Assembly (NCBI GenBank): GCA_000993535.1
Contig: LBWG01000010.1
Location: 1-37,948 of the forward strand
DNA from: Candidatus Uhrbacteria bacterium GW2011_GWF2_39_13
GTDB taxonomy: Bacteria > Patescibacteriota > Patescibacteriia > UBA9934 > GWF2-40-263
Direction of reading: 5' to 3'
Length of the DNA: 37,948 nucleotides
Below are positions 2,703 to 34,499 of this stretch, piece after piece. The translations under genes and the position numbers were made by a program. Position 1 is the first letter of the stretch. The number at the start of each line of letters is the position of its first letter. Below the pieces are notes generated by a model, which was given only the letters and a program-made list of their open reading frames with translations, did no database searches and was not told the origin of the DNA.

Positions 2703-2731
2703 TGAATGAACGCCACAAGAGGTTGTCCCAA

Positions 2732-2834
2732 AACTCGATGAGATCAACTTGAACGGGCTGTCGAGCCGTACGAACCCTATTCAAAATAGGGAGAGTGCGG
2801 TCGACGGGCGCCCGTGAAGGGACGTTTTCTGATC
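2732..2834 (+). repeat. Hairpin element copy A (degenerate 3' side)
   Basis: This is one of three copies of a structured repeat in the window (the others are 21550-21681 and 34370-34499). It keeps the 5' string AACTCGATGAGAT, the string GAACGGGCTG, an apical hairpin CCCTATT...AATAGGG, and the 3' string GGGCGCCCGTGA. The outer right arm (GATCGCGAGTT in the other copies) is lost and the 7-bp variable helix no longer pairs fully, so this copy looks decayed. Orientation is given by the AACTCGATGAGA half coming first; it points toward galU. Confidence 0.75.
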
Positions 2835-2874: not shown

Positions 2875-3753
2875 ATGAAAATTCGAAAAGCAATTATCCC
2901 TGTTGCAGGAATGGGAACTCGTTTTCTTCCCGCCTCTAAAGCTCAACCAAAAGAAATGCTTGCAGTGGTTGATAAACCCGTCATTCAATATATTGTCGAG
3001 GAAGCCGTTGCCAGTGGCATTGAAGAAATTATCTTTGTTACAGCCATTGGAAAACGTGCCATTGAAGATCACTTTGATCGAAACTTTGAACTCGAATATC
3101 GACTGGAGCAAAAACACAAAGAACATGAACTTGATATTGTTAAAAAAATTGGAAAGCTGGCTCATTTTGCCTTTGTGCGACAGACCAAACCCTTAGGAGA
3201 TGGCCATGCAGTTTTATCCGCTCTCCCATTTATTGACCAGCATGAGCCTGTCGCCGTCTTGTTTGGAGACGATATTATCGATACAGAAAAACGTCCTGCA
3301 TTGGCTCAACTCATTGATGTCTACCAAACCTACGGAGACCCTGTGATGGCCCTACAAAAAGTTTCTAAAAAAGAAATCTCACGTTTTGGTGTGATCGGAG
3401 GCAAACGATTGAATCCGAATGTTTGGGAAATCAATCAATTTGTTGAGAAACCGGAAATAGACAAAGCCCCATCAGATCTCATTGTGATTGGACGCTATAT
3501 CCTGACTCCGGAAATTTTCGATCTTCTTCCACAACAAGCCGCGGGCAAAGACGGAGAGATCCGCTTAGCCGATGCCTTTATTACCCGTCTCAAACAAGGC
3601 AAAGCTCTTTATGGCTGTAAATTTGAAGGAATACGTTATGACTGTGGAAGTAAGCTTGGATTCTTAAAAGCTCAAATAGAACTCGGGCTCAAACATCCTG
3701 AAATTGGTTCGGAACTTAAACGTTATTTAAAACAAACAAAGAAATCTCTTTAA
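2875..3753 (+). CDS. galU: UTP-glucose-1-phosphate uridylyltransferase
   Basis: The enzyme makes UDP-glucose from UTP and glucose-1-phosphate in the cytosol, feeding surface polysaccharide and glycosylation. The 292-aa length is normal. The N-terminal nucleotide-binding signature is clear: IPVAGMGTRFLPASKAQPKEML (given here in parts: GMGTRFLP then PKEML, residues about 12-29), then DKPVIQYIVEEA, the strand VAVLFGDDII, the sugar-binding VEKP segment (NQFVEKPE) and the late YDCGSKLGFLKA segment. All are features of the bacterial GalU family. It starts 122 bases after a repeat copy and is followed at 38 bases by the solute-binding lipoprotein gene, so it could lead an envelope operon that runs through the pilin-like genes. 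Confidence 0.95.
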   Translation: MKIRKAIIPVAGMGTRFLPASKAQPKEMLAVVDKPVIQYIVEEAVASGIEEIIFVTAIGKRAIEDHFDRNFELEYRLEQKHKEHELDIVKKIGKLAHFAFVRQTKPLGDGHAVLSALPFIDQHEPVAVLFGDDIIDTEKRPALAQLIDVYQTYGDPVMALQKVSKKEISRFGVIGGKRLNPNVWEINQFVEKPEIDKAPSDLIVIGRYILTPEIFDLLPQQAAGKDGEIRLADAFITRLKQGKALYGCKFEGIRYDCGSKLGFLKAQIELGLKHPEIGSELKRYLKQTKKSL

Positions 3754-21473: not shown

Positions 21474-21546
21474 GAGGCCACGGCCGGGATTGAACCGGCT
21501 CGTCGAGGTTTTGCAGACCCCTGCGTTCCCATTTCGCCACGTGGCC
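21472..21546 (-). tRNA. tRNA-Cys (anticodon GCA), CCA encoded
   Basis: Read on the minus strand, the acceptor stem GGCCACG pairs with CGTGGCC; the D stem is GCG/CGC; the anticodon loop is CTGCAAA with anticodon GCA; the T arm is GCCGG TTCAATC CCGGC. The discriminator base is U, an identity element for cysteinyl-tRNA synthetase, and CCA follows in the gene. Total 75 bases. Its 5' end abuts repeat copy B by three bases. Confidence 0.95.
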
Positions 21547-21549
21547 ATA

Positions 21550-21681
21550 GCTATGAATGACGAAACTCGCGATCTTTGCGTTCACGGGCGCCCAGGCACA
21601 CCATCAGATGTACGTTTGGGTACGTCTGATGGGGCTGCCAGCCCGTTCACGCAAATCTCATCGAGTTTCATCATTCATAGC
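21550..21681 (-). repeat. Hairpin element copy B, complete
   Basis: A 132-base element, read on the minus strand. The outer arms pair over 20 positions with a single U.G wobble. Then come AACTCGATGAGA, a 7-base helix (TTTGCGT with ACGCAAA) bracketed on both sides by GA/GA tandem mismatches, CGGGC/GCCCG, and a large apical hairpin (CCATCAGA/TCTGATGG). It shares the fixed strings with copies A and C but not the paired arms. It precedes tRNA-Cys in the same direction. Confidence 0.85.
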
Positions 21682-33058: not shown

Positions 33059-34348
33059 TTACTTGATTATGATTCCTCTTAAATATTCAATGACTTTTCG
33101 ATTACGAAGGATTTGTTCCATGTAATCTCGATATTGTGGGGAGTAGACTTGTTCTTTGGTTTTGGCTTCTTCGTATTGGTCAGCAATACGGTCTAATTCC
33201 TCGTCGAGTTCTTTTTCATCAACTTCAATTTTTTCTTGTTTGGCAATTTCACGCATGACAATGGCTACTTTTACGCGCATGAGTGCCTGAGGGGTGAAAT
33301 CAAGTTTCATTTGTGCCAGTGTTTTTCCTAGATTTTTGATATAGGTATCAAATTCCAGACCTTGAGCCTCCACACCACGCTGGAGTTCGAGGATCATTTT
33401 ATTGATCTCTTCATTTATAAGAAGATCGGGAATATCTTCAAATTGAGATTTATTCGCGACCAGTTCAAGCATTTCTTTTTCTTCTTTTGATTTGGATTCC
33501 TGTTCTTTCTCTGTTAAAAGATTTTTTCCAATAATCTCACGCAGAGTTGTCATGTCTTTTGTGCCCATCATTGCCGCAAAAGCATCATCCAACTCAGGAG
33601 GTTGAAGGTGATAAAGCTCTTTAAGTGTGATATCAAACATAACGTCTTTTCCTGCAAGAAATTCTTGTGCATGTTCTTTTGGAAAAGTGATTGTAAAGGA
33701 TTTCTCTTCTCCTTCTTTCATTCCTTCTAATTTTTCTTTAAATCCCGGAATATAATATTCCTCATTTAAATAAACACTATGATTGGGTGATTGACCGCCT
33801 TCTAAAGGGACGTTATCCAGCTTCATGTTCATGGCAATGACAACTTTGTCTTTTAGACTTGTTGTTTTTTCCGCTGTTGCGCGTACCTCGGTGGTTCTCA
33901 TACGCTGGAGATCTCTCAGGGCCAAATCAATTTCTTTTTCTTCTACCTTGGTTGTTTGAGCTTTGACACTCAGTTTTTTTACATCAGCAAGACTTTTTGT
34001 TTTTGGCATGAGAGTCACTTCAGCGGTGAAGACTACATCATTACCTGGAGCAAGTTTGAGAACATCCACCTTAGGAGAGCCGACCGTGTCGATGTTTTCA
34101 GCAAGAATGGTTTCTACAAACGATTTTCGGACCAGGCTCTCAAGAGCCTCTTCCATGATTTTCATTTCCCCAACGCGCTGTTTTACCACGGTATAATCTG
34201 CGTGTCCTGGACGAAATCCCGGAATAGAGGTTTGTTGGGAGATTCGTTCTGCTGCTTTCTCAAAATAAGGTTGAGCTTCTTCTTGAGTGATCGTAAACGT
34301 AAGCTTAATGACATTTTTTTCTAACAATTCTTTTTCAACGTTTGGCAT
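33059..34348 (-). CDS. tig: Trigger factor (ribosome-bound chaperone)
   Basis: The 429-aa chaperone binds nascent chains at the ribosome. The N-terminal domain (VEKELLEKNVIKLTF ... SIPGFRPGHAD) carries the ribosome-binding loop region (FRPG where FRxGKxP is usual). A FKBP-like PPIase domain follows (about 145-235: LKDKVVIAMNM ... YYIPGFKEKLEGMKEGEE), then the long helical chaperone domain. ATG 34348 is chosen because conservation begins there; an in-frame extension to 34420 is made of repeat copy C. No Shine-Dalgarno is seen; its leader of about 175 bases includes that repeat. Confidence 0.93.
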   Translation of the reverse strand: MPNVEKELLEKNVIKLTFTITQEEAQPYFEKAAERISQQTSIPGFRPGHADYTVVKQRVGEMKIMEEALESLVRKSFVETILAENIDTVGSPKVDVLKLAPGNDVVFTAEVTLMPKTKSLADVKKLSVKAQTTKVEEKEIDLALRDLQRMRTTEVRATAEKTTSLKDKVVIAMNMKLDNVPLEGGQSPNHSVYLNEEYYIPGFKEKLEGMKEGEEKSFTITFPKEHAQEFLAGKDVMFDITLKELYHLQPPELDDAFAAMMGTKDMTTLREIIGKNLLTEKEQESKSKEEKEMLELVANKSQFEDIPDLLINEEINKMILELQRGVEAQGLEFDTYIKNLGKTLAQMKLDFTPQALMRVKVAIVMREIAKQEKIEVDEKELDEELDRIADQYEEAKTKEQVYSPQYRDYMEQILRNRKVIEYLRGIIIK

Positions 34349-34369: not shown

Positions 34370-34499
34370 GAGACCTTTATAAAACTCGCGATCTTGCCTT
34401 TCACGAGCGCCCGCTGACACCGTTCTCCCTACGGTGAGTAGGGTTCTCGGGGCGAAGCCACCCGTTCAAGGCAATCTCATCGAGTTTTATAAAGGTCTC
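34370..34499 (-). repeat. Hairpin element copy C, complete, in the tig leader
   Basis: A 130-base element. Read on the minus strand, the 19-bp outer arms pair perfectly (34370-34388 with 34481-34499). Inside are AACTCGATGAGA, helix TTGCCTT/AAGGCAA bracketed by GA/GA pairs, CGGG/CTCG, and the apical hairpin CCCTAC/GTAGGG followed by GAGA, which it shares with copy A. It lies between the promoter at 34532-34560 and the tig start at 34348, so it is transcribed. Confidence 0.85.

Follow-up and report, generated by a model that had tools for sequence, protein, structure and literature searches.

Given that a hairpin of about 130 nt recurs within the window, that is, the whole 37,948-nucleotide stretch of the Candidatus Uhrbacteria bacterium GW2011_GWF2_39_13 assembly that was analysed, we asked whether it is a structured RNA, a repeat, or a combination of the two. 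The initial annotation had described three copies, here A, B and C, and the sequence bore out their places and strands, the strings AACTCGATGAGA, GAACGGG, CGTGA and GATCGCGAGTT, the perfect pairing of both 7-bp helices (TTTGCGT/ACGCAAA and TTGCCTT/AAGGCAA), the GA opposite GA on each flank of that helix, the single U.G in the arm of copy B when read on the minus strand, and the absence of the right arm from copy A. A covariance model of the core, R1, matched all three copies (2730-2828 on the plus strand; 21562-21669 and 34381-34488 on the minus strand). The outer arms, put at 19-20 bp, do pair, but their variable part spans 15 bp and the remainder is the CTCG/CGAG base of the core. In folding tests, DNA folded too, and both strands of the element folded well. 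The start codon of the trigger factor gene lies 21 nt past the 3′ end of copy C, and the arrangement of copy B with tRNA-Cys recurs in the relative G005 (locus L095; orthology), so that the tRNA-Cys copy is found in both G000 and G005.

Table 1 Copies of the element in the window and the genes downstream of them.
Feature	Position	Strand	Evidence
Copy C, complete 130-nt element	34370..34499	-	ends GAGACCTTTATAAAA/TTTTATAAAGGTCTC; R1 93.6 bits; RNA folding z-score -10.6
Core of copy C, CTCG-A-UGA-GA-helix7-GA-ACGGG...CUCGU-GA-helix7'-GA-UCG-CGAG	34385..34484	-	sequence, pair counts, fold
tig (trigger factor), downstream of copy C	33059..34348	-	TIGR00115 307.9 bits, over cut-off
Copy B, complete, IS982-like ends CTATGAATGATGAAA/TTTCGTCATTCATAG	21550..21681	-	R1 105.6 bits; RNA folding z-score -11.2
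tRNA-Cys(GCA), directly downstream of copy B, same strand	21475..21546	-	Rfam tRNA 55.2 bits; ARAGORN
Copy A, keeping left end GAGGTTGTCCCAAAA plus core; no right helix or arm	2719..2828	+	sequence; R1 59.6 bits
galU, downstream of copy A	2875..3753	+	TIGR01099 337.1 bits, over cut-off

The family proved far larger than three copies. The pattern CTCGATGAGA-N4-12-GAACGGG occurred 10 times in the genome and its reversed control not at all, and R1, built from 28 core sequences, identified 25 copies in the source genome (E below 1e-5). Within the order of the source genome, 52 of 73 genomes had R1 matches, and the copy number per genome reached 51; outside the order R1 matched one genome in the phylum sample. 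The order-restricted distribution that R1 implied was dropped when a broader model, R2, built from more divergent tRNA-linked copies, matched 31 of 380 genomes sampled across the phylum and spread over it (the compared genomes measure 0.5-1.7 Mb, which suits the initial annotation's placing of the DNA in Patescibacteria). The layout is kept in the distant copies, for example as GAUGAAAU..GGCGUAC..GUACGNCGA..AACGAAGNAGUUCGCC. Pattern matches on viral and genome contigs were set aside: those listed lack the 3′ half and look like unrelated, largely coding sequence, and the number of matches is near chance. Comparison with the 4227 families of Rfam 15, which include ribozymes, T-box and other leaders and ncRNAs, returned no match over the element while recovering the tRNA and rRNA controls, on which basis a known ribozyme or leader was rejected, and literature searches did not retrieve a description of the family. 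The expectation of a real family with further copies, outside the named ones, thereby held for both the order and the phylum, and on these Rfam and literature searches the family is undescribed.

Pairing across 90 copies delineated the boundary between arms and core, with at least 84% Watson-Crick pairs up to arm position 14, about 60% at position 15 and near-chance pairing beyond. Covariation exceeded both shuffled and slid controls, the behaviour expected of a conserved RNA: in alignment A2, whose structure was derived from the very sequences scored, it reached 0.370 against 0.116 for shuffled and at most 0.091 for slid alignments, with 20 of 34 pairs changing on both sides, and in 33 tRNA-linked sequences, in an alignment fitted to the model, it reached 0.642 against 0.140 and at most 0.097, with double changes in 31 of 34 pairs. 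Because the sequences are related, p-values are indicative only. Several irregular features accompany this variability. A bulged A, a U.G, a G-C and an A-U pair and GA facing GA are fixed at the base in about 87 of 90 copies. About 75 of 90 have a further GA/GA, often replaced by GC/AA in the remainder. Neutral mutation of double-stranded DNA predicts equal numbers of G.U and A.C; instead, G.U outnumbered A.C by 27:4 and 30:15 in two alignments with the fixed U.G excluded, and the inner helices across the 90 copies gave ratios of 20:7 and 11:2. Selection therefore acts on one particular strand to fold. The fixed bulged A, U.G and GA/GA, together with the G.U excess, identify a single strand as the folding strand, and covariation, folding and pair counts agree with the earlier claim of a covarying structure with tandem G.A motifs on the minus strand of copies B and C. 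Together, these results show that the GA-rich strand of the core forms one long hairpin, kept by compensatory change across the phylum.

In addition to the folded core, the copies carry the marks of transposition. With copies aligned on their arm ends, exact 7-bp flanking duplications were present in 10 of the 15 copies of the TTGAATTACGAAA type (about 1 expected from shuffles), and 4-bp duplications in 17 of 75 others (0.75 expected); some copies have 5-bp duplications. In a relative, G002, the end GAGACCTCTGCAAAACTC precedes an IS5 family transposase (NF033581, over the cut-off), one end of this IS5-type element being seen, and an IS982-like element has both 17-bp ends, AGCTGTGAATTACGAAA, and matches Pfam DDE_Tnp_1_3 over the cut-off and NCBIfam IS982 at 110.8 bits, under the cut-off of 130. 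Further end types are GAGGTTGTCCC, GTAAA..TTTAC and AGGANTTAC; the transposase matches cover the IS5- and IS982-type ends only. The duplications and IS ends thus mark the outer arms as terminal repeats, which belong to two or more unrelated kinds of transposon and enclose a single core, and arm differences between copies therefore reflect end type as well as any structural constraint. Accordingly, the arms that had been read as covarying do pair, but as the terminal inverted repeats of a mobile element. The initial annotation had also listed similarity to IS ends or MITEs already known as evidence against its reading; such similarity exists in part, for the arms, and does not explain the conservation and covariation of the core.

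The ends and the core combine in various ways. At L105 (G068 C29), a GAGACC-type element is nested inside one of the TTGAATTACG type with a 6-bp TAGGGA duplication. Two loci of G035 (L132 332-490 and L133 295-440) hold another short element that shares the ends GAGACCTCTGCAAAACTCGC around a different interior, indicating that IS5-type ends also carry other cargo. At L146 3103-3210 (G027), the core lies between arms GGGTCTGTTCCCGAATTCG/CGAATTCGGGAACAGACCC that resemble neither IS end type, with a RAYT-like gene about 1.3 kb away, and at L122 386-600 (G000 C9) the end-like GAGACCTCTGCAAAACTC, which is probably a remnant, stands directly before an ORF that by eye looks like an XerC/D-type tyrosine recombinase. 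The core loops of L009, L010, L049, L071, L083 and L087 hold inserted GC-rich hairpins, such as CCCGCCCGACCGTCGAACGTTCGTTCGGGCGGG, which look like a second small palindromic repeat family nested inside the element. At L004 1475-1625 (G000 C9), a copy interrupts an intrinsic terminator within its loop, and the L004 flanks alone read GAGACC(TGATTT)GGGTCTC between A and T runs; L052 and L056 look similar. No long autonomous element with the same core was found in G068 or among the end matches listed for seven genomes, including G005. A RAYT/Y1 protein was rejected as the common mobiliser, since PF01797 does not track copy number over 73 genomes: the gene occurs without the element in genomes of genus g32, and the element without the gene in G018, G023, G028 and G052 (9-16 copies), so that the co-occurrence with a Y1 RAYT transposase that characterizes REP/RAYT systems is absent.

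Short length with terminal inverted repeats (15-bp arms, 90 copies), target-site duplication and ends common to an autonomous transposon (both ends for the IS982-like element, one for the IS5 family) class the element as a variety of MITE. We consider it probable that this MITE-like element of about 130 bp is mobile but non-autonomous, that it relies on borrowed transposases, and that its conserved core folds in a strand-specific way. The best-surviving alternative, which we hold unlikely, is that these are plain MITEs whose folded strand has no function, their arms matching to fit one transposase and their inner helices maintained by template-switch correction. Template switching during replication is an established means by which quasi-palindromes are corrected, and the target duplications, the IS ends and the nearly perfect arms of recent copies all suit this account. 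Nevertheless, template switching should erase the GA/GA and the bulged A, yet 87 of 90 copies have them unchanged and distant genomes retain them; moreover, the excess of G.U over A.C speaks against a functionless strand, and plain MITEs do not predict a polarity toward tRNAs and stop codons.

That polarity was pronounced. In 38 tRNA-linked copies, covering 24 tRNA identities, the 3′ end lies 10-18 nt before the tRNA 5′ end, always on the same strand; part of this set was found by a pattern requiring this arrangement and 15 copies came from tRNA-blind searches. Both of the two tRNA-linked copies in fresh loci fit the same placement, and a pattern joining the core end to a tRNA D-arm gave 40 matches in the order against 1 for the control. 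In three cases, the element directly adjoins the 3′ end of a tRNA that lies on the opposite strand. Furthermore, in 30 of 126 copies a converging gene has its stop codon between -5 and +4 nt from where the 3′ arm ends, compared with 3 copies in which the stop codon of a same-strand gene lies so at the 5′ end, a pattern noticed in those same data and repeated in 60 freshly fetched loci (21 vs 6, p 0.006). G+C within 20 nt of the 5′ and 3′ sides was 0.376/0.480, 0.391/0.448 and 0.354/0.457 in three sets. A single rule fits the placement: the 3′ end faces a gene, whichever direction that gene reads, and the 5′ end faces an AT-rich spacer. A target-sequence motif was discarded, the flanks being only A+T-rich, and a -10 box at a constant position upstream of the tRNA-linked copies was not found. 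A 74-nt miniature (L123 342-415, G000 C9), which keeps the ends and the CTCGATGAGA/GATCGCGAG base and has lost the upper core, still lies 16 nt before tRNA-Arg.

The uniform strand and spacing of the tRNA-linked copies would also be expected of a host-useful leader RNA acting in tRNA processing or regulation and only secondarily a source of mobile copies. Comparison between genomes offers this idea further support. Leaders of tRNA-Arg(gcg) carry the element in four genera, two of which share upstream sequence, and the most divergent copies within the order are mostly tRNA-linked. Before tRNA-Arg(tct), G000 and G005 carry the element at the identical spot, ahead of CTTGT and the tRNA, and pairing is retained despite 7 differences between their left arms, 6 being compensated and 1 giving U.G; these represent a single insertion that has since evolved with its pairing constrained, or else two separate insertions into the same nucleotide position. 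As a further comparative site, the tRNA-Ile(gat) that precedes tRNA-Phe carries a copy in genomes belonging to two families. Against a host-useful leader stands its patchiness within a genus: the tRNA-Arg(tct) leader of G003 is an empty site, and no copy stands before tRNA-His in G003 or G004, while the tRNA-His leader of G005 holds one between CTTATG 6-bp duplicates, the second abutting the tRNA. In addition, of 28 copies from beyond the order, just 1 is linked to a tRNA. We therefore judge this alternative very unlikely, more so than plain MITEs.

How a mobile element with a folded core might acquire such placement can be outlined within the favoured reading. Transposases would act in trans on the exchangeable ends, and the core would be read as a single strand, most likely as RNA in read-through transcripts, by some factor. 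Copies outside tRNA leaders are mostly antisense to the neighbouring gene, and transcription of the GA strand is thus not evident there. In the sense direction, the hairpin may be cut or otherwise separated from neighbouring RNA, which would be harmless in a tRNA leader because the leader is removed anyway; right behind an ORF, a sense hairpin would be harmful, so that sense copies would be lost and antisense ones remain. We compare such harm to upstream RNA with ERIC, for which orientation-dependent mRNA destabilisation is known (PMC2229807). This orientation filter does not explain the closeness, within a few nucleotides, to stop codons and tRNA 5′ ends. A bolder reading, tentative and in our estimate probably wrong, though more plausible than either alternative above, is that of a phylum-wide selfish nucleic acid whose lasting unit is the hairpin rather than the ends, whose ends are swapped between unrelated transposases, and which a factor reading the single-strand tandem-GA core would steer with fixed polarity to tRNA 5′ and gene 3′ ends. 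A third alternative, in which a strand-specific recombinase or transposase recognises the hairpin as single-stranded DNA, as with attC or REP/RAYT, is very unlikely, because such recombination makes none of the 4-7 bp target duplications present here and RAYT-like genes do not track the element, even though DNA also folds and a strand-specific fold that lies antisense beside stop codons is reminiscent, in general outline, of attC sites in cassettes.

Collectively, the element represents a small mobile family running through a phylum of reduced genomes, and its fold persists longer than the transposon ends around it. Rfam would gain a new structured family, and such hairpins should not be taken for riboswitches of the gene that follows. 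Two matters thereby become open to testing: which factor recognises the tandem-GA hairpin, and how placement at tRNA 5′ ends in one orientation comes about for an element of bacteria.

Several known systems share parts of this behaviour. REP hairpins often lie just behind stop codons; they are shorter and lack target duplications, and in the genomes compared here copy number does not follow the RAYT genes. Yeast Ty3 and Dictyostelium TRE insert just upstream of tRNA genes, but these are eukaryotic retrotransposons guided by Pol III factors, whereas the present element is bacterial, non-coding and also found at gene 3′ ends. RUP borrows IS630 ends, as ends are borrowed here. ERIC, NEMIS/Correia, RUP, YPAL and RPE measure less than 200 bp and have terminal repeats, target duplications, intergenic locations and transcripts predicted to form long stem-loops (PMC2229807, PMC10969869), all of which the element shares with these bacterial MITEs and small repeats. 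Unlike them, it places one core under at least two unrelated transposon end types and combines fixed GA/GA and heavy covariation with phylum-wide spread and one-orientation tRNA placement; neither PMC2229807 nor PMC10969869 mentions a tRNA link of small repeats. BOX of Streptococcus pneumoniae is likewise a structured repeat at gene 3′ ends, 36 copies overlapping the extreme 3′ end of a gene and supplying its stop codon, but differs in its modular A-B-C build, and in the parts of its description consulted here a tRNA preference is not reported (PMC3049150). Judged by the descriptions of the known families, a conserved, phylum-wide, strand-specific core and polar placement at tRNA genes set this element apart.
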